DNA of 64,000 nt from Dyadobacter jiangsuensis (GTDB lineage Bacteria > Bacteroidota > Bacteroidia > Cytophagales > Spirosomataceae). The notes under the pieces were generated by a model that saw only the letters and a program-made list of their open reading frames with translations, was not told the origin of the DNA and searched no databases. How positions within the stretch are numbered: the stretch's first letter is position 1; the number at the start of each line of letters is the position of its first letter. Of this stretch, positions 45,406 through 56,599 are shown in pieces. The DNA is taken from NCBI RefSeq assembly GCF_003014695.1, contig NZ_PYAS01000009.1, positions 62,001 through 126,000 on the forward strand, read 5' to 3'. Both the position numbers and the translations under genes were made by a program.

Positions 45406-46596
45406 ATGAAAAATTCGACCCGCTTTCAGTTGATGGCCATGATGTTCCTGCTCTATTTTGTGTGGGGTGCATGGTACGGGCAAATGAGCAAGTATATGTT
45501 TACGGAACTGGGCGCGACGGGCGTCCAGGTGGGCAATGCCTACGCGGCATTCTCCATTGCGATGATCATCGCGCCATTCTTCGTGGGTATGATCGCCGAC
45601 CGTTATTTCGCGGCACAAAAAGTGCTGGGCATATTAAGCCTTGCAGGTGCTGCTATTTTGTATGTGCTGGCGGAAGTGAAAGACCCCGACACGTTTTTCT
45701 GGGTGATCCTGGCCTACTGTATCACTTTCGCTCCGGCGATGTCGCTCACGACGTCTATCGCCATGCAGCAGGTTACCGATTCGGAAAAGGACTTTCCCGC
45801 GATTCGCGTAATGGGAACAGTAGCCTGGATCGCGGTAACCAACATCATCGGATACTATGAAATTGGCGGTACCGCATTGATTTTCAAGATTTCGATGTTT
45901 ACGGCTGCATTTCTCGGCGTTTACTCTTTCTTCCTGCCTGATACCCCTCCAAAGCCAACTTCACACACCTCTTTCTCGGATATTCTGGGTTTGGATGCGT
46001 TTAAATTGTTCAAAGACCGCTCTTTCGCGATCTTCTTTATTTCTTCGCTGCTGATCTGTATCCCATTGTCGTTCTACTACGCCATGGCAAACCCGTCGCT
46101 GACGGATTCGGGCATGACCAACGTGGAAAATAAAATGTCCCTTGGGCAGGCTTCCGAAGTTGTATTTATGTTACTGATCCCGCTGGCGTTTTCACGTTTT
46201 GGCGTGAAATGGATGCTGGTAGTAGGTCTTATTGCCTGGATCATCCGCTTCATCGGCTTCGGTTACGGCGATGCTTCCAGCGAATGGCTACTTTACCTGG
46301 CGATTGTGCTGCACGGCGTTTGCTACGACTTTTTCTTCGTTACCGGCCAGATTTACACCGACAGCAAAGCGGGCGAGCAATACCGTTCTTCGGCGCAAGG
46401 CCTGATCTCCATCGCTACTTACGGCATCGGAATGGGTATCGGTTCGTGGATTGCCGGTGTGGTGGCTGATATGTACACGGTCGACAATGTGAAAAACTGG
46501 ACGTCGATCTGGATGGTGCCGGCTGGTATTGCAGCCGTAGTACTGGTACTCTTCGTGTTGTTCTTCCGCGATAACAAGGTTAAAGCCGCAGCATGA
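45406..46596 (+). CDS. Nucleoside:H+ symporter family (MFS) transporter
   Basis: 396 residues, 12 predicted transmembrane helices, matching the nucleoside:H+ symporter branch (NupG/XapB-like) of the major facilitator superfamily. Typical segments are FVWGAWYGQMSKYMF near the start, FVGMIADRYFAAQKVLG between helices 2 and 3, and FFVTGQIYTDSKAGEQYRSS. It imports nucleosides with protons in characterised members; substrate here is inferred. It shares the sequence ATGA with the next gene. Confidence 0.86.
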   Translation: MKNSTRFQLMAMMFLLYFVWGAWYGQMSKYMFTELGATGVQVGNAYAAFSIAMIIAPFFVGMIADRYFAAQKVLGILSLAGAAILYVLAEVKDPDTFFWVILAYCITFAPAMSLTTSIAMQQVTDSEKDFPAIRVMGTVAWIAVTNIIGYYEIGGTALIFKISMFTAAFLGVYSFFLPDTPPKPTSHTSFSDILGLDAFKLFKDRSFAIFFISSLLICIPLSFYYAMANPSLTDSGMTNVENKMSLGQASEVVFMLLIPLAFSRFGVKWMLVVGLIAWIIRFIGFGYGDASSEWLLYLAIVLHGVCYDFFFVTGQIYTDSKAGEQYRSSAQGLISIATYGIGMGIGSWIAGVVADMYTVDNVKNWTSIWMVPAGIAAVVLVLFVLFFRDNKVKAAA

Positions 46597-46961
46597 AATC
46601 GTTCGTAACCATAGGCCTTCTGATATTGTCCAACGCCTTCATGACCATGGCGTGGTACGGGCATTTGAAATTCAAGGAGATGGCCTGGTTCAGTAAACTG
46701 GGGCTATTCTCCATTATCCTCATCAGTTGGGGGATAGCCCTGTTTGAATATTGTTTTCAGGTTCCTGCCAACAGGATCGGCTTCAAGGAGAATGGCGGGC
46801 CATTTTCACTGGTAGAGCTGAAAGTGATTCAGGAAGTAATCACGCTGGTCATTTTCATGGTTTTCACTTTGCTTTTCTTCAAAACAGAAACTTTCCGCTG
46901 GAACCACTTCGTCGGGTTCGTTTTCCTGGTCCTGGCAGTTTACTTCATATTCAGGAAATAA
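46593..46961 (+). CDS. DUF486 (DMT-type) small membrane protein
   Basis: 122 residues, four transmembrane helices, full-length DUF486. Diagnostic text: NAFMTMAWYGHLKFKEM, FEYCFQVPANRIGF and LKVIQEVITLVIFMVF. Related to half-size drug/metabolite transporters; no substrate is known. The start overlaps the transporter stop by four bases, so translation is coupled. Confidence 0.88.
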   Translation: MKSFVTIGLLILSNAFMTMAWYGHLKFKEMAWFSKLGLFSIILISWGIALFEYCFQVPANRIGFKENGGPFSLVELKVIQEVITLVIFMVFTLLFFKTETFRWNHFVGFVFLVLAVYFIFRK

Positions 46962-46997
46962 AAAGAGCCTGCAAGTTTCGCTTGCAGGCTCTTTTTA
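46959..46997. terminator. Bidirectional terminator
   Basis: A 17-bp perfect stem (46959-46975 with 46981-46997) around a TTTCG loop, with A and T tracts at the outer ends. It ends both the nucleoside-transporter operon and the convergent RNA-binding gene. It is the strongest terminator in the window. Confidence 0.9.
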
Positions 46998-47009
46998 CAA
47001 TGTAGTATT

Positions 47010-47684
47010 TTAGTCCCAATCGTCGCCACCACCAAACCGGCGGCCGTAGTCTTTCGAACCGCCTCCGCCTTTTTTGTTGCTGTAACGGTCTTCCATTTTC
47101 GGTCTTCCTCCCTGGTGACGGTTATGGTCATGTCCGCGGTCGTGGTGCCCCTTGTCGCGCTGCTTGTCGGGCTGGCGGAAGTTGTTGCCTCCTCCCGAAA
47201 AGCCCCGGTCGCTAAAGTTGCGTTCGGCAGGTCTTGCCGGTGCGCTCGGTGCGTCGTCATCGTCCTGATCGTCGTCGTCAACAGACGGTTCTTGCCGGGT
47301 ATAATCCCTTCCTGTATTTCTATCTTGAGTATAAGGCGTTCTGTTACCTGGACCGTCATTTCCCGCCGGTCGTGGCCGGTTAAAGCCTTCCCGGTTGCGC
47401 GTATCGGGCCGGGAAGTGCCGCCACCGCCGTCGCTTCTGGGTTCTCTCTTCTGGGATTCGTTTACAACCAGAGGCCTGCCATACATATCCGCCCCGTTCA
47501 ATGCACTAATGGCAGCTCTCGCTTCTGTTTCATCGGGCATTTCAACAAACCCGAACCCTTTGCTTTGACGCGTAATTTTGTCAATGATAATTTTCGCCGA
47601 GCTCACTTTACCATACTTTTCGAAAGCTTCACGCAGCTCGCTTTCCTTTAACTTAAAAGAAAGACTACCAACAAAAATGTCCAT
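47010..47684 (-). CDS. RRM RNA-binding protein with low-complexity tail
   Basis: 224 residues. One RRM (about 1-80) with RNP2 (IFVGSL) and RNP1 (KGFGFVEM), so the aromatic RNA-binding residues are intact. Residues 85-224 are low complexity, rich in Arg, Asp, Gly and Asn, with RGG-like and RDxx repeats. This layout is common in Bacteroidota and resembles cyanobacterial Rbp and plant glycine-rich proteins; in Bacteroides such proteins affect many mRNAs. The tail may support condensation or unspecific RNA contacts. Confidence 0.88.
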   Translation of the reverse strand: MDIFVGSLSFKLKESELREAFEKYGKVSSAKIIIDKITRQSKGFGFVEMPDETEARAAISALNGADMYGRPLVVNESQKREPRSDGGGGTSRPDTRNREGFNRPRPAGNDGPGNRTPYTQDRNTGRDYTRQEPSVDDDDQDDDDAPSAPARPAERNFSDRGFSGGGNNFRQPDKQRDKGHHDRGHDHNRHQGGRPKMEDRYSNKKGGGGSKDYGRRFGGGDDWD

Positions 47685-47798
47685 GAAACGCCTTGATTTT
47701 ATTGATTTTAGATGTAATAAATATATTTTACTTTATCCACTCAAGAGCCAAAGTCGGCTTATTTACTTTTCTTGGTCTTGATTTTCTGATTATTATAT

Positions 47799-47806
47799 CA
47801 AAGCTA
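47799..47806 (-). promoter_or_regulatory. Candidate -7 box for RNA-binding protein gene
   Basis: The minus strand reads TAGCTTTG, an exact TAnnTTTG match, with a TTG 22 bases upstream (one more than ideal). It would give a 5' leader of about 108 bases that is very A/T-rich. Confidence 0.42.
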
Positions 47807-47853
47807 AATAAAATTGCCCAAAGTGATCCAAGGGGACATTTTTTAATTTTTTT

Positions 47854-48309
47854 CTATAATTTAAGTCTGACGTCATAAACAAAATCACGGACCGATCGGA
47901 TGGAATAGGTTACAGCCCTGCGAAATAGCGGATTGAGCAGGAAATTGAATTCATCGTCCATGATAGCGGAAGGGATTTTGATAATCCCGTAATCGGCCTT
48001 CCGGAGCAAATGAGTACCAAAATCTTTGGCCGAAGCGGGTGCAGGGGCATTCTTCCAATCGCCGGGCAGGGCGCTGACCGGCAATTCTAAAATATAGTCA
48101 GGGTCTACTTCAAACGCGGTAATACTGAGCGCCCGCGGAATGTCATCTATGTTTACATTGGCCGTATATTCCAGCAACGCCAGCGCGCGGCTTTCCGAAG
48201 TATAAATGCAGGGCGTAAGCGGGTGGTTCCAGCGGCCGCCATGCAGGCGTGCACCTTCGCCGTCGAGGTCGCGGGCGTAACGTGTGCGCCCGACTCTGTA
48301 AACGATCAT
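47854..48309 (-). CDS. RES-domain toxin
   Basis: 151 residues. RES domain: RVGRTRYARDLDGEGARLHGGRWNHP, then IYTSESRALALLEYTAN. The conserved Arg, Glu and Ser of RES proteins are present. Characterised members (MbcT, ParT) degrade NAD+ or ADP-ribosylate PRPP synthetase. The gene directly follows a matching antitoxin gene, with 11 bases between, so this is a type II toxin-antitoxin pair. The start is ATG at 48309. Confidence 0.9.
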   Translation of the reverse strand: MIVYRVGRTRYARDLDGEGARLHGGRWNHPLTPCIYTSESRALALLEYTANVNIDDIPRALSITAFEVDPDYILELPVSALPGDWKNAPAPASAKDFGTHLLRKADYGIIKIPSAIMDDEFNFLLNPLFRRAVTYSIRSVRDFVYDVRLKL

Positions 48310-48320
48310 CGGCTACGGCA

Positions 48321-48833
48321 TCAAGAATAAACCCCGTAATCAATGCGCCCGATCATATTTTTGATTTCTTCGCGGCCGAACTGATTATCCAGGAAGTCAA
48401 AAGGCCGCTGGCCTCCCAGCGCCTGATTAGGCCTGAAAACCCAGCTATTGAAACGCGCTGCGTCTTCGAATACTTCGTATCCGTAAGAATAAATATCAGC
48501 CAGGCTAACGATCCGCTCGCTTAGGGATTGATTAAACTTTTCATCCCCCTTTTTATTGATTAGCGTCGCCCGCGCCACCGACAATGCATGGGCCAGCTGA
48601 TCATAGTCCAAACCAGCCTTCTCCTTAAACAACTCAAAATCATTCTTGCTGATCCCTTTCCGGATCATCTCGATTTTCTGAAAGCTGGTCATCTGGCTTT
48701 CGGGCTTTTGCAGGGAGGTTTTGAAGATAATACCGGGGTGTTGCGCGCCATAATAGGCAGCATAAGGTTCATTAAAAGTGGCCCCCGGGCCGTCCTCTGG
48801 CTCCGGATATGGCTTAGGTGTGTGCTTTTTCAT
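48321..48833 (-). CDS. Xre/MbcA/ParS-family (DUF2384) antitoxin
   Basis: 170 residues. An N-terminal tail (1-45) with many Pro and Glu, a helical Xre-like DNA-binding core (about 50-105) and the C-terminal toxin-binding DUF2384 domain (about 110-170; FNSWVFRPNQALGGQRPFDFL). It neutralises the RES toxin by blocking its active site and should repress its own promoter through the palindrome just upstream. The low-complexity N-terminus is longer than in most family members. Confidence 0.9.
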   Translation of the reverse strand: MKKHTPKPYPEPEDGPGATFNEPYAAYYGAQHPGIIFKTSLQKPESQMTSFQKIEMIRKGISKNDFELFKEKAGLDYDQLAHALSVARATLINKKGDEKFNQSLSERIVSLADIYSYGYEVFEDAARFNSWVFRPNQALGGQRPFDFLDNQFGREEIKNMIGRIDYGVYS

Positions 48834-48848
48834 AATGATCTAAATATT

Positions 48849-48878
48849 TACTAAATCCAGTATAAATTTATACTAAAT
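48849..48878. promoter_or_regulatory. Operator candidate of the toxin-antitoxin operon
   Basis: AGTATAAATTTATACT (48859-48874) is a perfect 16-base palindrome, 26 bases upstream of the antitoxin start. A direct repeat TACTAAAT occurs at 48849-48856 and 48871-48878, two helical turns apart. This arrangement fits cooperative binding of an antitoxin dimer. Confidence 0.6.
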
Positions 48879-48892
48879 GTACGGAAATAAAA

Positions 48893-48915
48893 ATGCCCCG
48901 CAAATAGCGGGGCAT
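48893..48915 (-). terminator. Terminator after the HEAT/DUF1080 gene
   Basis: ATGCCCCGC pairs with GCGGGGCAT around a five-base loop, nine bases after the stop codon, and the minus-strand exit side is U-rich. It separates the gene from the toxin-antitoxin operator. Confidence 0.82.
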
Positions 48916-48923
48916 CTCCAAAA

Positions 48924-51900
48924 TCATTTTTTCTTCTTATTCTTTTTCTTTCCTGTTTCCACCGGTTCTGGTGCCACTTTGGTGAGGTCTTTGACGCGGA
49001 TGTTCCTGAATTTGAGTTCGGAACCGTGGCCAAGGAACCCGAGGTGGCCGCTGGTTCTTTTAAGTCCCGGGTGATCCTTATGATCGGCAGTGCCGTTTTT
49101 GCTGGCTTCTGCAAGGTCGCCATCCAGGATTACGGTGCCGTTCAGGGTTACCTTGATTTTCGAGCCTTGCACGCGCACTTCTTCGTAGTTCCACTCGCCA
49201 ATCGGTTTCAAATAGCCTCTTTTCGCAGGAATAATGCCGTAGGCTGAACCGTGGTACTGGTATTCGTGCAGATCCTTGTAAATCTCTGCTTCGTTGTCCA
49301 GAATCTGAATTTCAGTTCCTACGTACGCCGCGTCGCCTTCCATCGGCGTGCGGATACCCAGGCCGTTGTTGGCACCCGGCGTAAGCTGAAACTCGAAACG
49401 GAAGTCGAAATCGCTGTATTCATCTTTGGTGTACAGGTTGCCTTTGCCGCCTTTTTTAGGATCGACAACGAGTTCGCCGTTTTGAATGAAATAGTCGGTT
49501 TTGTTACCCACCCATTCAAACATATTGGTACCGTCGAAGAGGACTTTGAAATCATCCTTCTGCTCGGCTTCGGGCAATGTAAATTCAGGACGAGGGATTT
49601 CACGAACGTAGATATCACGGTAGTGGATCTCGTTGCCGTGCGCCTGTAATTCGAGTTGTTCTTTCGCGAAGATAGGCAAGTTGCGATCCCAGTAGTTTTC
49701 GAGCACTACATTGTCTACCACATTCTCACCATTCAGATCCACCGATACGCGGTCGCCGATCATCGTGATATGGAAGGTATTCCATTCGCCGATCGCATTG
49801 TCGGCTACTTTCGAAGGCTTGCTCGGGTTTTTCTGGTTGTTATAAAGCCCTCCCGAACCCACCTGCGCGCCTACGCTTACACGTGAGGTATCCCAGATCT
49901 GCACCTGCGGCGTACCGCGGAGGTAAATACCTGCGTCACCGTCTTTCTGGATTTTCCAATCGACGTACATTTCGAAATCGCCGTATTGTTTTACGGTGCA
50001 AAGGTTGTCGCCATGGCCGGAGAACACGAGTTCACCATCTTTGGCAAACCAATCCTTGAATGCAGCTTCATCCGCTTTTTTCTGTTTGAAAGCCAAAGTG
50101 TCGGCGCTCATTTTGCGGCGTGCGATCGGGTTTTGTACCAAACCTTTCCAGCCTGAAAGGTCTTTGCCATTGAACAATGACACAAAACCTTCGCCAGTCG
50201 GCAACTCAGCCAAATGTTTGCGGATGGATTCGCGCTGGTAATCAGCATCCTGTCCTTTCAAAAGAGGACCCGCTTTGGTAAGCAGCTCACGGATTTCGGC
50301 GCTGTACAGGTTTTTGTTAGCCAATGCGATGTTCATCACGGCCTGCGCTGCTGCCTGTTGTGTACCGGCGTTATCCAGGTATTTTCCTGCCAGTAATAGC
50401 GAATTGAAAGTCCGGTTTCTTCCGAGCTCTTTCAAAATGGCTTCTTTCTGTGCATCGGTTTTCGCGATCGCCAATGCCTCACGAAGCATAATCACCTTGT
50501 TGGCAGCCGTCTTTCCGGACTTTGCTGTTGTAGCTACATAGCCTGTCAATGCGGCATTGAAATCATCTGTGTCGCTGGTGTTGCGCGCAATTGTCAGCAA
50601 TTCTCCGGCTGCGCTTGCATCCGACCATGCCGAGAGAGCCGCAATGGCCGATTTCTTTTTCGCGGCATCTCCGTTTCCATAAGCTTCGGCCACTGATTTC
50701 AGCGCTTTTTTACCGCCAATACCTGCCAAAACCGCAAGGTAATTACCTTGTTTATCGGCAGGGGCAGCCTGTATTTGTTTCAAAACAGCGTCTGTCTGGC
50801 TATTCACATCACCACTTTCCTTAATCGCCGCGTCGATAGCGCTCTGCGTGGCTGCAACCTCGTCGGCATTGGAAACGGTATTCAGCAAGGTATAGAGCTG
50901 TGGCAAATCGTTACCGGTAGCCAGGGATTTCAATGCATTGAAAGCCGATTTCCGCACTTCGGGATTGGTATTTTTCAATTGTGCGGAAACAACCGGAAGC
51001 TTGGAACTCGCTCCACGGGCAGCCAGTACGTCGATTAAGGCCGATTGTGAAGCCGCAGGAAGGGTAGGAATGGCGGTTGCCACCTGATCCACGAGCGAGG
51101 CACCTTTAATCGTAAGCAAGCTGCTCTTAACTGCCGCTATTTCGTCCGCAGTGGCTGTTTTCAGAACCGGGATCAGTTTGGCAATGCTGCTTTCCTGACC
51201 GATTCTGCCGGCAGCCCAAATGGCAGCGGTTTTTACTTTGCTATCCTTCGAAGCCAATGCTTTCAAAACGACCGGCAATGCATCTTTCGATTCCGCACGG
51301 CCCAGCATAGTGATGATCTCCGCCTGCACGGTAGGAGTCGCCTTTTTGTATGCATTCAGCCAAGGCGTAGTGCCATCGGCCATCAGGTATTTCTGGCCCA
51401 GTTTCAATGCAGCAGCGCGGTATTGTGCGTCGCTGCTCTGCAATGCGCTTACGAGCACTGGTACAGATTCTCTCTTTTTGATATCCGAATAAATCTTCAA
51501 TGCAGAAGAACGCGTCGCTGATTGCTTCGCATCAGGTGTAGCCTTGATCAAAGCGAGCGCCGCTTTTTCAGCGGAGGCTGCATTACCATTGGCCGCCAGA
51601 TTTGCGAGGTATTTGAGGTAAACAGCCGTAGCATCCGCTTCATCGTAACCATAAGCGGCTTTCTGCGCAGCGCCTGCCAGGATACTTTCCGAAGAAGGCG
51701 AGCCGATTTCCGAAAGCGCATAAAGGCTTACCTTACGCAGCTTGGTGTCGGAGTTGGCAGCGGTTTTTTCGATGGCGGGAGCAGCTTCTTTGTTGTGGCT
51801 GCCGCCCAATGCCTCGGTGATCGCGAGTTGGGCGCCTCCGTTGGCATTGTTTAGCGCTTGCAGCAATGCAGCTCCGGCAGCTGGCGAGCCAATGCGTGCC

Positions 51901-52361
51901 AGCGTTCGCGCAGCAGGTTGCGAAAGCCGCTCGTCTTTGAGATAACCTTTCAAAACATCCACTGATTCATCCTTGCCCACTGTTTGGAGCTGATAAATGA
52001 GGAAATTTTTGCTGTCGGGATCGCTTACTTTCGACAATGCTTCGCCATAGGCCTCGGCCGCGTCTTTACGCAATGCTTCTTTGCCGGCCTGGGACGCATA
52101 ATAGGTGAAGCCACCCAATGCATATTGGATTTTGGTATTGTCTCCTTTGCCGAGCGGTGTCAGCATGGAGGCAATCTGCACCAGGCCGGGCTTGCCGAGC
52201 TGGGCAAGCTCTTCCATGTTTTTCTTCAGTGCAGCCTCGTTTTGGGAAGGCAGTTTCGCCAACACCGCCTTCACTTTGGCGTCGAGCGAGTTGTCGGATT
52301 GGGCCATCAGCTGCGAGGAAGCCAGGCAGAGGGCCATGATAGGGTAAAGTCTTTTTTTCAT
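48924..52361 (-). CDS. Giant exported protein: HEAT repeats plus two DUF1080 domains
   Basis: 1145 residues. Signal peptide (ends near LMAQ; start at 52361, MKKRLYP), then about 650 residues of HEAT-type helical repeats (about 30-700), then two DUF1080 (3-keto-disaccharide hydrolase) beta-sandwiches at about 717-930 and 937-1120, and a lysine-rich tail. The first DUF1080 domain opens with SLFNGKDLSGWKG and the second with VLFDGTNMFEWVG. Characterised DUF1080 proteins act on glycosides previously oxidised at C3. The upstream gene, ending 55 bases away, encodes a Gfo/Idh-type oxidoreductase, so the two probably act in sequence. HEAT repeats may scaffold the substrate or partner proteins. Confidence 0.9.
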   Translation of the reverse strand: MKKRLYPIMALCLASSQLMAQSDNSLDAKVKAVLAKLPSQNEAALKKNMEELAQLGKPGLVQIASMLTPLGKGDNTKIQYALGGFTYYASQAGKEALRKDAAEAYGEALSKVSDPDSKNFLIYQLQTVGKDESVDVLKGYLKDERLSQPAARTLARIGSPAAGAALLQALNNANGGAQLAITEALGGSHNKEAAPAIEKTAANSDTKLRKVSLYALSEIGSPSSESILAGAAQKAAYGYDEADATAVYLKYLANLAANGNAASAEKAALALIKATPDAKQSATRSSALKIYSDIKKRESVPVLVSALQSSDAQYRAAALKLGQKYLMADGTTPWLNAYKKATPTVQAEIITMLGRAESKDALPVVLKALASKDSKVKTAAIWAAGRIGQESSIAKLIPVLKTATADEIAAVKSSLLTIKGASLVDQVATAIPTLPAASQSALIDVLAARGASSKLPVVSAQLKNTNPEVRKSAFNALKSLATGNDLPQLYTLLNTVSNADEVAATQSAIDAAIKESGDVNSQTDAVLKQIQAAPADKQGNYLAVLAGIGGKKALKSVAEAYGNGDAAKKKSAIAALSAWSDASAAGELLTIARNTSDTDDFNAALTGYVATTAKSGKTAANKVIMLREALAIAKTDAQKEAILKELGRNRTFNSLLLAGKYLDNAGTQQAAAQAVMNIALANKNLYSAEIRELLTKAGPLLKGQDADYQRESIRKHLAELPTGEGFVSLFNGKDLSGWKGLVQNPIARRKMSADTLAFKQKKADEAAFKDWFAKDGELVFSGHGDNLCTVKQYGDFEMYVDWKIQKDGDAGIYLRGTPQVQIWDTSRVSVGAQVGSGGLYNNQKNPSKPSKVADNAIGEWNTFHITMIGDRVSVDLNGENVVDNVVLENYWDRNLPIFAKEQLELQAHGNEIHYRDIYVREIPRPEFTLPEAEQKDDFKVLFDGTNMFEWVGNKTDYFIQNGELVVDPKKGGKGNLYTKDEYSDFDFRFEFQLTPGANNGLGIRTPMEGDAAYVGTEIQILDNEAEIYKDLHEYQYHGSAYGIIPAKRGYLKPIGEWNYEEVRVQGSKIKVTLNGTVILDGDLAEASKNGTADHKDHPGLKRTSGHLGFLGHGSELKFRNIRVKDLTKVAPEPVETGKKKNKKKK

Positions 52362-52416
52362 CAGATATGCCGGTGCCGCAAGCCCGAATAGGCCTGTCAG
52401 CGTAGCTTTTAGGTTC

Positions 52417-53694
52417 TTAAATGGTCCAGGGAGCACGCATTGGCTGGTTGATCAACCGGTTGGCGCCTTCGTCGTCGATAAATTCCTGCTTGTCCGGATC
52501 GAATTTCAATGAGCGGCCCAGGCGCAATGCGATGAGGCCCATGTTTACGATCGTACAAGAGCGGTGACCGTTTTCTTCGTTCAATGCGAACTTTTTGCGG
52601 TTCTTCACGGCGTCCACGAAGTCGGTAATCTGTGGTTCGGGATCGGGGAATGCGGCGAGTTTCTTTTCCAGGTCCGGAATATCCGATTTGAAATTTTGGT
52701 ACAGCTTGCCTTTCGGGCCCTCGATGTACGCTACTTTATCGTCTTTGGCCTCGCCGTCGAGCACGATCTGGCAGCCATCGGCATAAGTGTAGGTAATGCG
52801 GCGCCAGGTTCCTACGGCTTCGGTATGTTGCTGAGGGGCATCCACTTCCACACTTACAGGGCTGGTATCGTCCTTGCCGAGGAAATATTGAATCGGGTCA
52901 ATGTAATGCTGGCCCATGTCGCCCAGGCCGCCGCCATCGTAATCCCAATAGCCACGGAAGGTCCCGTGCACGCGGTGCTCGCTGTATGGCTTGTACGGCG
53001 CGGGTCCGAGCCACATATCATAGTCGAGCTCGGCTGGTACCGGTTGAGGTGCATTGTTTGTTTTACCTACCCAATAGAACTTCCAGTCGAAACCGGTATG
53101 CTTGCTCACGGTCACTTTCAATGGCCAGCCGAGCAAGCCGCTCTGAACGAGTTTTTTAATGGGTTTTACGGTGGTATTCATTCCGTAGAAATTGCTTTCG
53201 AAACGGAACCAGGTATTGAGACGGAACACTCTTCCATGCTGCTGGACGGCCTCTACCAGGCGCTTGCCTTCGCCAATGGTACGGGTCATCGGTTTCTCGC
53301 ACCACACGTCCTTGCCCGCGCGGGCAGCATCGGCGGCGATAATGCCATGCCAATGCGGAGGCGTCGCCACGTGCACGATGTCCACCTCGGGAAGCTGGAT
53401 CAGCTCGCGGTAGTCGGAGAAGGTTTTGACGCCCTTGTCAACCATATTTACCGCAATGTCGAGGTGTTTTTTATCCACATCACACAATGCAACTACTTTG
53501 GTGCCGGCATAAGGGATGTGGCCGCGGCCCATGGAGCCGGTTCCAACGATAGCCTTGGTGAGCGTGTCGCTAGGGGCGAGGTAACCTTTCCCCAGCACAT
53601 GGCGGGGAACGATCGAAAACGTTGCCAGCGTCGCCAGTGAGCCTTTGATAAAGCTCCTGCGTGAGGACGCGGAAAGTCCTTTCTCTTCTTTCAT
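52417..53694 (-). CDS. Tat-exported Gfo/Idh/MocA oxidoreductase
   Basis: 425 residues. Twin-arginine signal SRRSFIKGSL near the N-terminus followed by a hydrophobic stretch, so the folded enzyme with bound cofactor is exported to the periplasm. The Rossmann domain has TGSMGRGHIPYAG, and CEKPMTR holds the expected catalytic-site lysine of the Gfo/Idh/MocA family. The C-terminal domain follows (GDMGQHYIDPIQY). Family members oxidise or reduce sugars with tightly held NAD(P). The pair with the DUF1080 gene suggests C3 oxidation of glycosides. Upstream lies a 168-base region with strong hairpins. Confidence 0.92.
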   Translation of the reverse strand: MKEEKGLSASSRRSFIKGSLATLATFSIVPRHVLGKGYLAPSDTLTKAIVGTGSMGRGHIPYAGTKVVALCDVDKKHLDIAVNMVDKGVKTFSDYRELIQLPEVDIVHVATPPHWHGIIAADAARAGKDVWCEKPMTRTIGEGKRLVEAVQQHGRVFRLNTWFRFESNFYGMNTTVKPIKKLVQSGLLGWPLKVTVSKHTGFDWKFYWVGKTNNAPQPVPAELDYDMWLGPAPYKPYSEHRVHGTFRGYWDYDGGGLGDMGQHYIDPIQYFLGKDDTSPVSVEVDAPQQHTEAVGTWRRITYTYADGCQIVLDGEAKDDKVAYIEGPKGKLYQNFKSDIPDLEKKLAAFPDPEPQITDFVDAVKNRKKFALNEENGHRSCTIVNMGLIALRLGRSLKFDPDKQEFIDDEGANRLINQPMRAPWTI

Positions 53695-53758
53695 TCGTTA
53701 AGGTTCTTTTAGGAAGTAAAACTGATTGTTATGTGCTTGTGAAATTAGGACAATATCA

Positions 53759-53818
53759 GGAATGCGCCAAAGCATTCCCGGGCATTACCCGATATTAATG
53801 GGGTAATGCCTCGGAATG
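53759..53818 (-). promoter_or_regulatory. Switching hairpins upstream of the Gfo/Idh gene
   Basis: GGCATTACCC (53781-53790) pairs with GGGTAATGCC (53801-53810). The segment GCATTCC (53772-53778) can pair either with GGAATGC (53759-53765), forming a hairpin next to the first, or with GGAATG (53813-53818), extending the first stem. No U-tract follows, so a simple terminator is unlikely; the role is open. Confidence 0.45.
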
Positions 53819-53862
53819 GGCCGTAAAATCAGAGAAAATGGGCAATACGCCCTGCGTGCTCG

Positions 53863-55422
53863 TTACAATGGAATATTGCCGTGCTTCTTTTTGGGGAGCA
53901 CATCCACCTTGTTTTCCAGCATTTCGAAGGCGCGGATGAGCTTCGCGCGGGTCTGGTCGGGGTAGATCACCTCATCGATATAACCGCGGTGCGCGGCCCG
54001 GTAAGGGTTCGCAAATTTGTGGGTATAGTCGTCGATTTTTTCCTTCAATTTCTCCGCCGGATTTTCGGCTTGTGCAATCTCCCGTTTGAAAATGATTTCG
54101 GCCGCACCGCTCGCGCCCATTACGGCGATTTCGGCGGAAGGCCATGCAAAGTTCATATCCGCGCCGATGTGCTTGGAATTCATCACATCATAGGCGCCCC
54201 CGTACGCCTTGCGCGTGATCACGGTAATGCGCGGAACCGTCGCCTCGCAGAATGCATACAGCAGTTTCGCGCCGTTGCTGATGATCGCATTCCATTCCTG
54301 GTCGGTACCGGGAAGGAAGCCGGGGACATCTTCCAATACCAACAACGGAATGTTAAAACAATCGCAAAACCGCACAAAACGCGCCGCTTTCTGGCTCGCA
54401 TGGATGTCGAGCACACCCGCAAGCACGGCGGGTTGGTTGGCTACAATGCCAATGCTGCGGCCGGCAATGCGCGAGAAGCCCACGACGATATTTTCAGCAA
54501 AATTTTCGTGTACTTCAAAAAAACTGTCGGGGTCGGAAAGCTCGGTGATTACCTCCCGCATATCGTAAGGCTGGTTGGCATTCTCCGGAATGAGCGTATT
54601 CAATGCCGGGCGAAGCTCGTCGCCGGGTGTGTAAGGATACCGAGGCGCATCGTCCTCACAATTTTGCGGCATATAGCTCAGCAGCTTTTTGATTGACTGC
54701 AGGCATTCGACTTCATTGGCCGAAACAAAATGCGTTACGCCCGATTTTGTGGCGTGCGTCATCGCACCGCCGAGTTCTTCCGAAGTTACTTCTTCGTGCG
54801 TCACCGTTTTGACCACATTGGGTCCGGTCACGAACATATAGCTCGTGTTTTCAACCATTAATATGAAATCCGTGATCGCAGGCGAATATACGGCACCGCC
54901 GGCGCAAGGGCCCATTACAGCCGAAATCTGCGGTATGACCCCGGAAGCCAGCGTGTTTTTGTAAAAAATATCCGCATAACCTGCAAGCGAGAGCACCCCT
55001 TCCTGAATGCGCGCGCCACCCGAGTCGTTGAGGCCGATCAGCGGGGCGCCGTTTTTCATGGCGAGGTCCATCAGCTTGCAGATTTTTTCCGCATGTGTTT
55101 CCGAAAGCGAGCCGCCGAAAACGGTGAAATCCTGTGCGAAAACGTAAACCAGCCGGCCATTAACTTTGCCGTAGCCTGTTACCACGCCGTCGCCGAGGTA
55201 ATGCTCCTTGTCCAGCCCGAAATCCTTGCTGCGGTGCATCACAAATCGGCCTATTTCTTCGAAGGAGCCTTTGTCGAGTAGAATGGAAATGCGTTCCCGG
55301 GCGGTGAGCTTTCCCTTTGCATGTTGCGCCTGGATCCTGTTTTCACCGCCGCCCAGTTCAGCCTCAGCGTTTTTTTGATCTAAAAGTTCTTTTTTTGAAA
55401 CAGCGGCTGATAGGGATTCCAT
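53863..55422 (-). CDS. Acyl-CoA carboxylase beta subunit (PccB type)
   Basis: 519 residues. Two carboxyltransferase halves: N-terminal (about 30-260; [38 protein letters not shown]) and C-terminal (about 280-500; [37 protein letters not shown]). It moves CO2 from biotin to an acyl-CoA, most often propionyl-CoA, and would use the carrier at 31025-31552. No alpha subunit (biotin carboxylase) lies in the window. Methylmalonyl-CoA decarboxylase is the main alternative, since it shares the fold. Confidence 0.92.
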
Positions 55423-55440
55423 GTAATGCGGGGATATGGT

Positions 55441-55448
55441 TACATTTG
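55441..55448 (+). promoter_or_regulatory. Candidate -7 box for porQ
   Basis: TACATTTG is an exact TAnnTTTG match, 59 bases before the porQ start, in the divergent region with the carboxylase gene. A -33 box is not clear. Confidence 0.4.
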
Positions 55449-55507
55449 TTGGTGAACGGTTATAAATATAGCTGCATTTTAATGATTAGGGAAATTATTG
55501 GACGTTT

Positions 55508-56599
55508 ATGAGGAGCACAGGCTGCGGTTTGCTTTTCCTGATCACATGGCTTTGTGCGCCGTGGAATGCCGCTTTCGCCCAGGTCACGGGCGGCCGTACC
55601 CGTCTGGATTTTCTTCAATTGCCCGCCCAGGCACGTAGTACCGCGTTGGGTTCCAACCACATTACCGCGCAAGGCAATGATCCCTCATTGTTTCTTCAAA
55701 ACCCTGCTTTGCTCGATTCCGCGAAGATCAACAATGTATCGTTGAACCTGATGCCCTACCTGGCGGATACGAAGTTTGTGAATATGGGTTATGCCAACCG
55801 GGTCCGCAAAACGGGCGGCACCTGGGCAGTAGGACTGCAATACCTGAACTACGGCACCATGCAGGAAACCGACGACATAGGCAATGTGGTAGGGGAGTTC
55901 CGTGCGGCGGATTATGGGTTATCTGCCGGTTATGGCCACACCATAGGCGCATTCACGCTCGGCGCGACGGCCAAATTCGTAGGAGCATCGATTGAAAGCT
56001 ACCAAACCTGGGGAATGGCGTTCGACTGGGGTGCCACATTCCGGCACCCGCGTGAGGACCTGACGATCGGTTTCGTGGCTAAAAACTTCGGTTTTTTAAA
56101 GCAGAACTACAATGGCGCGAATACGCCGGTGCTGCCATTCGATATGCGGGTAGGGGTAACTTTCAAACCCCAATACATGCCCATTCGCGTGTCGCTGACG
56201 GCCCATCACTTGAACCGGTTCGATATGGTTTACAACGACCCGAACCTGTTTTATACCTACGACATTAATGGCACTAAACTGCCCAAAAAAGTGGGAGTAG
56301 CAGAAAAGCTGGGCAGGCATCTGTCGCTCGGCGCAGAGATTTTGGCACATCCCAATTTCCGTATTCTGCTGGGCTATGATCACCTGAAACGGCAGGAACT
56401 CCGCCTGACGAACCGCGGCGCATTAGCGGGTTTTTCGTTCGGTGCGTGGCTACGTGTTAAGCGTTTCGAGGTCGGTTATGGCCGGGCGCAATATGTACCA
56501 GGCTTTGGCAGCAGCTCCATTTCCATTGTGATGAACCTCAAAAACGGGTTTGCCAGAAACAAATGGGACGAGCCGGTGAAAGCCAGGCCCGTCCGGTAA
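55508..56599 (+). CDS. porQ: PorQ-like type IX secretion protein
   Basis: 363 residues. Signal peptide (to about 24; AAFAQ), then an outer-membrane beta-barrel of about 14 strands (FadL/PorV-like). The motif ARSTALGSNHITAQGNDPS and the repeated strands match PorQ, an accessory protein of the attachment complex that links T9SS cargo to lipopolysaccharide. Cargoes in this window are the dehydrogenase-like protein and the GH9 enzyme. It ends nine bases from a convergent reductase gene. Confidence 0.86.
   Translation: MRSTGCGLLFLITWLCAPWNAAFAQVTGGRTRLDFLQLPAQARSTALGSNHITAQGNDPSLFLQNPALLDSAKINNVSLNLMPYLADTKFVNMGYANRVRKTGGTWAVGLQYLNYGTMQETDDIGNVVGEFRAADYGLSAGYGHTIGAFTLGATAKFVGASIESYQTWGMAFDWGATFRHPREDLTIGFVAKNFGFLKQNYNGANTPVLPFDMRVGVTFKPQYMPIRVSLTAHHLNRFDMVYNDPNLFYTYDINGTKLPKKVGVAEKLGRHLSLGAEILAHPNFRILLGYDHLKRQELRLTNRGALAGFSFGAWLRVKRFEVGYGRAQYVPGFGSSSISIVMNLKNGFARNKWDEPVKARPVR

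Follow-up and report, generated by a model that had tools for sequence, protein, structure and literature searches.

A candidate exported oxidize-then-cleave gene pair in Dyadobacter jiangsuensis: a Tat-signaled Gfo/Idh/MocA oxidoreductase and a HEAT-repeat protein with two DUF1080 domains

Exported oxidize-then-cleave systems for sugars are already known: in Bacteroides, BT2158 is described as a glycoside 3-dehydrogenase of the periplasm (PMC11300592), and a role as periplasmic 3'-ketolactose hydrolase has been proposed for a DUF1080 protein of Caulobacter (PMC9007349). BT2157 has been called a 3-ketotrehalose hydrolase (PMC9007349), BT2156 is annotated as a sugar phosphate isomerase/epimerase (PMC10434189), and AtOGE, a TIM-barrel enzyme from Agrobacterium, is a Mn-dependent 3-keto-glucoside eliminase (PMC10628242). 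Here, we describe a two-gene locus on the minus strand of a 64,000-nucleotide stretch of Dyadobacter jiangsuensis (contig NZ_PYAS01000009.1, positions 62,001 to 126,000; hereafter, the window), in which the gene for a Gfo/Idh/MocA oxidoreductase with a twin-arginine translocation (Tat) signal is followed by that for a large exported protein composed of a HEAT-repeat solenoid and two DUF1080 domains, D1 and D2 (Table 1). Judging from sequence comparisons, the two genes more probably than not encode one exported glycoside-cleaving unit, a variant of oxidize-then-cleave sugar breakdown.

The BT2156-BT2159 pathway of Bacteroides and Alistipes (AL2/AL3) likewise has an exported Gfo/Idh dehydrogenase and an exported DUF1080 protein, of the same fold families and encoded by neighboring genes, and a TIM-barrel protein accompanies some relatives of the window pair. 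Two papers from 2024, in Nature and Angewandte Chemie, reportedly describe a sequence of oxidation, elimination, hydration, and reduction, as well as a Ca2+ center in BT2157; "sugar phosphate isomerase/epimerase" is a usual name for the BT2156-like TIM-barrel family. The window pair differs from this pathway in that its DUF1080 domains are two in number and joined to a HEAT solenoid, where the pathway has a single free domain, and in that its oxidoreductase is of a different subfamily (a full PF19051 match, far below the BT_2158_fam cut-off). Moreover, neither a TIM-barrel protein nor a second dehydrogenase was found among those neighbors in the window that were scanned. BT3469 (Protein Data Bank [PDB]: 4jqt) also has two DUF1080-like stretches in one chain, of which the C-terminal one aligns to D2, but it is 431 residues long and, unlike the window protein, lacks a HEAT solenoid. 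The source genome itself encodes a second tandem-DUF1080 protein (C13:29617-30891; L003/L014), with a 470-residue frame that is 4jqt/BT3469-sized and too short for a HEAT solenoid.

In Caulobacter, oxidation by LacABC likewise takes place outside the cytoplasm and is followed by CCNA_01705, a DUF1080 protein bearing a putative signal peptide; unlike the window pair, this system comprises a three-component membrane-bound lactose dehydrogenase and a single DUF1080 domain, and the hydrolase role of CCNA_01705 is proposed from mutant fitness, not from an assay (PMC9007349). The same paper reports a lactose phenotype for none of ten DUF1080 genes in one Pedobacter (PMC9007349). The Zymomonas glucose-fructose oxidoreductase (PDB: 1h6d) has the same Gfo/Idh fold as the window oxidoreductase. 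It is exported, has a locked cofactor, acts on free glucose and fructose, and provides a model for redox recycling without an external acceptor; to our knowledge, it has no DUF1080 partner. A first-pass annotation of the window, made from the letters alone, had called the HEAT scaffold and the tandem domains unusual and had placed both steps outside the cytoplasm; tandem DUF1080 domains (solved in 4jqt) and a periplasmic dehydrogenase (BT2158) are not new, and what is new here is the HEAT scaffold, together with the divergent D1 and the near-obligate pairing described below. In the literature searched, with most subscription journals outside it, we found no report of the HEAT plus two-DUF1080 architecture, and DUF1080 and HEAT repeat co-occur there in a single paper, as separate table rows.

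A scan seeded by a pattern and covering 84,980 species, with one genome apiece, yielded 372 stretches that hold a gene for a relative of the large protein, and the best 80 of these (all Bacteroidota, judging by record titles) underlie the locus counts that follow. The oxidoreductase lies directly upstream of the large gene in 79 of the 80 loci (cut by the contig start in L069 and L089 and frame-broken in L082), and in the only miss, L075, the contig begins inside the large gene; the linkage on which the first-pass annotation had staked its proposal is therefore found in nearly all of the best relatives. When a single open reading frame (ORF)-and-BLAST method was applied to the 80 loci, the large protein was recovered in 79 and the oxidoreductase in 76; by comparison, the gene that comes next upstream in the window was recovered in 25, and each of the next two downstream in 8. 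Ordinary synteny among close relatives was rejected as the source of the pairing, since other neighbors drop away while the pair stays. Among the related loci, 76 contain the starts of both genes and an oxidoreductase frame that is intact; in these, with starts chosen by a script, 15-177 nt separate the two genes.

The closest relatives of the gene pair are found in Dyadobacter, where the full-length large protein is present in 36 of 37 genomes, our own included (the genome that lacks it is 81% complete), as against 1 of the 22 genomes from elsewhere in the order. All 30 loci kept from this search, the window among them, have the oxidoreductase upstream, a count that is not independent of the 80-locus scan because several loci are from the same species. 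In a sample of 296 Bacteroidota genomes, again including our own, the full-length large protein (E ≤1e-100) is found in five, each time with the oxidoreductase upstream, and the oxidoreductase (E ≤1e-60) in ten. Nine of these ten have a HEAT-DUF1080 partner: five have HEAT-D1-D2, and four (G206, G227, G259, and G175) have HEAT with a single DUF1080 domain, without D1, two of the four also having a shortened HEAT part. The pair is real, strongly conserved, and probably functional as a pair.

In Rhabdobacter roseus, the complete gene pair occurs twice, each time on a contig of its own (L054 and L083). Partners of graded size stand beside the same oxidoreductase in L155, L157, L158, and L159, with either a short HEAT part and one DUF1080 domain (499 and 554 aa) or a long HEAT part and one domain (951 and 931 aa). 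In L156 (5257-6528), an oxidoreductase 75% identical to that of the window has a GH127-type gene upstream, and no HEAT-DUF1080 partner was found in that genome.

The oxidoreductase matches PF19051 over the whole profile length (505.9 bits) and PF01408 with E 2.4e-21. Its N terminus reads SRRSFIKG, followed by a hydrophobic stretch, and RRxF[LIV] is present in 76 of the 77 relatives with a readable start. EKPM is found in 77/77 relatives and DMGQH in 76/77, the sole miss being the frame-broken L082, whereas the stricter GGGL[GS]DMGQH and a strict nucleotide-loop pattern fit 72/77 and 74/77, respectively, the remainder being conservative changes. In an alignment of 36 oxidoreductases, the mean column identity is 81%, and G51, G53, M55, and G56 of the nucleotide loop are invariant. 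The EKP lysine and the Asp and His of DMGQH are expected to be catalytic, as in the family at large, and with these residues kept, alongside the Pfam matches and the RR motif, the initial assignment as a Tat-signaled Gfo/Idh/MocA oxidoreductase holds. BT2158-type features, i.e., the Gfo/Idh catalytic motifs (in the roles just given) and an export-type N terminus, are thus present. Both by sequence and by Foldseek on a structural model of moderate quality only (mean predicted local distance difference test [pLDDT] 71), the best solved relatives are 8tdf/8tdh, titled glucoside-3-dehydrogenase AL3, with blocks around EKP and GDM..H common to the two proteins.

For the large gene, the longest open frame has a GTG start and encodes 1170 aa; read from the ATG at 52361, the product has 1145 aa and begins with the signal peptide MKKRLYPIMALCLASSQLMAQ. 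A lipobox pattern was found in 0 of 80 relatives scanned (79 with a readable N terminus). Export of both proteins was assessed by eye and by motif, and both have export-type N termini, in agreement with their earlier placement outside the cytoplasm. The two PF06439 stretches score 143.7 and 139.1 bits singly and 268 bits together (cut-off 26.8), each spanning profile positions 1-187; with HEAT_2 and the Sec-type signal, they bear out the architecture first read from the letters, and recomputation likewise returned the same coordinates, strand, sizes, and intergenic gap; these features are not due to chance. RefSeq names a relative of the large protein a family 16 glycoside hydrolase, and none of the six Pfam matches that the window protein has at E up to 0.01 is to a GH16 family. 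A tandem-repeat DNA artifact was rejected, since no tandem repeats were found, and so was an apparent 2807-aa fusion in L062, whose frame runs across a stretch of N.

A model of the large protein built from 43 aligned sequences (mean pLDDT 87, predicted template modeling [pTM] score 0.58) has an all-helical solenoid and two beta domains, the relative placement of solenoid, D1, and D2 being unreliable at this pTM. With the whole model as Foldseek query, the best match is 4jqt; separate partial matches fall on DUF1080 chains and on HEAT-type solenoid proteins, many of the latter eukaryotic, with query TM-scores ≤0.27 among the matches listed. D2 alone finds two stretches in the 4jqt chain, the better one being 215-430. 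The further DUF1080 structures matched are 3osd (BT2157), 8tda (B. thetaiotaomicron "BT2"), 9fbe, 8v31 (Alistipes AL2), and 8rr2, and the PDB titles of 8tda, 8v31, 8rr2, and 9fbe read 3-keto-2-hydroxy-glucal hydratase or 3-keto-glycoside eliminase/hydratase. Because of these titles, "cleavage" by a DUF1080 domain may be elimination plus hydration and not simple hydrolysis.

Both DUF1080 domains are present, but they are not equivalent. Mean identity to the window protein over 42 relatives is 46% for HEAT, 76% for D1, and 73% for D2; for the 31 relatives with HEAT parts <50% identical, it is 38%, 72%, and 68%, and the alignment has 12, 73, and 58 invariant positions in the three regions, respectively. 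The source genome has 22 DUF1080 matches, and the polar core of D2 (N998, G1000, E1017, Q1019, W1057, N1058, and N1074) consists of the residues that are commonest in the 20 other DUF1080 domains; positions 998, 1000, 1017, 1019, 1057, and 1058 are identical in 43/43 aligned sequences. At several positions, most of them non-polar, D2 has another residue than the commonest one (e.g., L1110, where 16/20 have Q). D1 keeps Q821, W860, N861, and N877 of the family core, and its two unusual residues, D809 and Q819, are fixed in 43/43 aligned sequences and recur in three D1-like proteins without HEAT from other genomes (L160-L162), which argues that D1 is a real subfamily. The idea that D1 is a decayed leftover was rejected, as no other part of the large protein is conserved as strongly. 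To the question, raised in the first-pass annotation, of whether the DUF1080 active sites are kept, the answer thus differs between the domains: D2 keeps the family core (the sense in which we speak of a kept active site, judged by conservation), whereas D1 differs from the family at two polar positions of that core, and in four sampled genomes the partner lacks D1 altogether. In a tree of 46 oxidoreductases, in which a very distant outgroup leaves the root uncertain, enzymes with D1-less partners appear in at least two places, which fits repeated loss of D1 and suggests that the constant part of the large protein is D2.

The proposal of a glycoside-cleaving unit draws on the pairing, on the AL3 and DUF1080 hydratase/eliminase relatives, on the invariant dehydrogenase residues and D2 core, and on glycan-type neighbors in other genera. 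The Tat-exported oxidoreductase, with tightly bound NAD(H), would oxidize C3 of a glycosyl residue, and the large protein would then cleave the acidified 3-keto sugar by elimination and/or hydrate the enone product, with D2 as the likely main catalytic domain, D1 as a possible second, specialized sugar site, and the HEAT solenoid perhaps holding substrate or enzymes together. The reduced dehydrogenase might be recycled most simply by reducing the released 3-keto sugar, in which case the net reaction would be hydrolysis without an external electron acceptor. Where a TIM-barrel gene adjoins the pair, as in Bacteroides and Parabacteroides loci, its product could be the eliminase, leaving hydration to the DUF1080 protein; where no such gene lies close by, as in Dyadobacter, elimination and hydration may both fall to the two DUF1080 domains. 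We infer the C3 regiochemistry, the elimination/hydration chemistry, the division of labor, the scaffold role, the cofactor locking, and the redox recycling. The pathway originally suggested, in which a 3-keto glycoside is made and then cleaved, is favored by the export-type N termini, the pairing, and the kept dehydrogenase and D2 residues, with the amendment that its cleavage step may be elimination plus hydration.

A number of observations weigh against this proposal. The AL3 sequence match is limited to the nucleotide-binding part and one GDM..H block, and the match to NCBIfam BT_2158_fam is partial and reaches 156.6 bits against a cut-off of 750, so the oxidoreductase is not a BT_2158_fam equivalog. 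One of the ten sampled genomes with the oxidoreductase, G182, has no HEAT-DUF1080 partner. No SusD-like or TIM-barrel gene was found in 30 Dyadobacter loci (flanks at most 6 kb) or among the seven window neighbors scanned, from 45406 to 56599. Finally, D1 has D809 where 18/20 other DUF1080 domains have N, and Q819 where 14/20 have E. The last point also counts toward a reading that we place below an even chance: D1 or both DUF1080 domains would be non-catalytic carbohydrate-binding modules, only D2 or neither would be an enzyme, and the main task of the HEAT protein would be to present glycans to the dehydrogenase. In Thermogutta proteins, annotations as DUF1080 and as CBM66 overlap (PMC5673643), and the four partners without D1, two of them also with a shortened HEAT part, point the same way. 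A Gln at the 819 position, however, also occurs in 4/20 other DUF1080 domains of the genome, and the high conservation of D1 counts against this reading, although it would fit a binding site too.

Other doubts concern the role of the unit or the substrate of its first enzyme. That the pair serves the bacterium's own envelope, trimming or recycling surface or periplasmic glycans, and not feeding, would alter its role and not its chemistry; we regard this as unlikely. The near-universal presence of the full-length protein in Dyadobacter, the missing SusD-like genes there, and the very high conservation of the oxidoreductase all suit such a housekeeping task, but the protein is patchy in the phylum (5/296 sampled genomes), and SusD, TIM-barrel, and sulfatase genes adjoin the pair in other genera. 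Considerably less probable still is an exported enzyme of the glucose-fructose oxidoreductase kind acting on free sugars, next to a DUF1080 protein acting independently on ordinary glycosidic bonds. Glucose-fructose (1h6d) and aldose-aldose (5a02) oxidoreductases, which are exported with a locked cofactor, do match the oxidoreductase by fold. An endo-xanthanase/lichenase role is reported for the DUF1080 protein THTE_1561 (PMC9007349); against this, glucoside-3-dehydrogenases are the best matches by both sequence and fold, and the near-obligate pairing argues for successive steps.

Few DUF1080 domains have been characterized despite their abundance, and an architecture tied almost one-to-one to one dehydrogenase across Bacteroidota offers a clean test pair for whether stepwise oxidation and elimination act on glycans left untouched by ordinary glycosidases. 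A further question is what is gained from the helical scaffold and from a DUF1080 domain that is both additional and divergent.

Table 1. Features of the oxidoreductase-HEAT-DUF1080 locus (window coordinates)
Feature	Position	Strand	Basis or remark
Gfo/Idh/MocA oxidoreductase, Tat-signaled, 425 aa	52417..53694	-	PF01408 and PF19051
Twin-arginine motif SRRSFIK, residues 11-17	53644..53664	-	sequence
EKP motif, residues 133-135, lysine expected catalytic	53290..53298	-	invariant in 36/36 aligned
GGGLGDMGQH motif, residues 254-263; Asp259 and His263 expected catalytic	52906..52935	-	D259-H263 invariant in 36/36
Intergenic gap, 55 bases	52362..52416	-	between oxidoreductase and large gene
Exported HEAT-DUF1080-DUF1080 protein, 1145 aa	48924..52361	-	
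Sec-type signal peptide without lipobox, residues 1-21	52299..52361	-	sequence
HEAT alpha-solenoid, residues 26-719	50205..52286	-	HEAT_2 E 6.5e-35; all-helical, high pLDDT in model
D1, first DUF1080 domain, residues 725-922	49596..50189	-	PF06439; divergent subfamily; fixed Asp809 and Gln819
D2, second DUF1080 domain, residues 929-1126	48984..49577	-	PF06439; core Asn998, Gly1000, Glu1017, Gln1019, Trp1057, Asn1058, Asn1074
C-terminal tail, lysine-rich, poorly conserved, residues 1127-1145	48927..48983	-	22% mean identity; 1129-1145 pLDDT <50

In other genera, the pair can have glycan-type neighbors, such as SusC/SusD, a TIM-barrel protein, or sulfatases. Since no flank exceeded 6 kb and several loci had shorter ones, the counts are lower bounds: at least 15 of the 50 non-Dyadobacter loci have a same-strand SusD-like gene upstream (two Pfam-checked), and an AP_endonuc_2 TIM-barrel gene lies directly upstream in at least 8 of the 50, all of them Bacteroides or Parabacteroides (two Pfam-checked). 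The TIM-barrel protein of L072 has a signal-type N terminus, and no homologue of it was found in the source genome at E 1e-6, in a search with this one protein as query, not the whole AP_endonuc_2 family, and with no positive control. The gene order in one Parabacteroides distasonis record is sigma factor, FecR, a stretch without a listed gene (where SusC is expected), SusD, and arylsulfatase; next come a GH109-type Gfo/Idh protein and the oxidoreductase, and after these the HEAT protein, which is the relative named a family 16 glycoside hydrolase, and a histidine kinase. Sulfatases stand beside the pair in three loci inspected. L157, L158, and L159 are single-DUF1080-partner loci of one family, and a sulfatase scan covering L158 and L159 found two sulfatases downstream on the same strand in the former and one, on the opposite strand and farther off, in the latter. 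Where sulfatases adjoin relatives, this hints at sulfated glycans as a possible substrate.

Some minor observations concern the surroundings of individual loci. In L158 (9688-13982), a DUF1501 protein and a DUF2231-PSCyt1-PSCyt2-PSD1 membrane cytochrome-type protein adjoin the pair, the latter a conceivable electron acceptor there. In L068, from Dyadobacter, a SusC-like gene lies on the other strand. L164 (NZ_OY725779.1) is labeled a 375-kb Parabacteroides distasonis plasmid, yet it carries recQ and murB and may be chromosomal. Within the window, which belongs to an 8.27 Mb genome, a promoter and terminator scan gave no excess over shuffles. Just downstream of the large gene (window 47854-48833, minus strand) lie genes for a RES-domain protein and an Xre/MbcA-type antitoxin, a pair resembling RES-Xre toxin-antitoxin systems, each of which is found in only 8/80 related loci.

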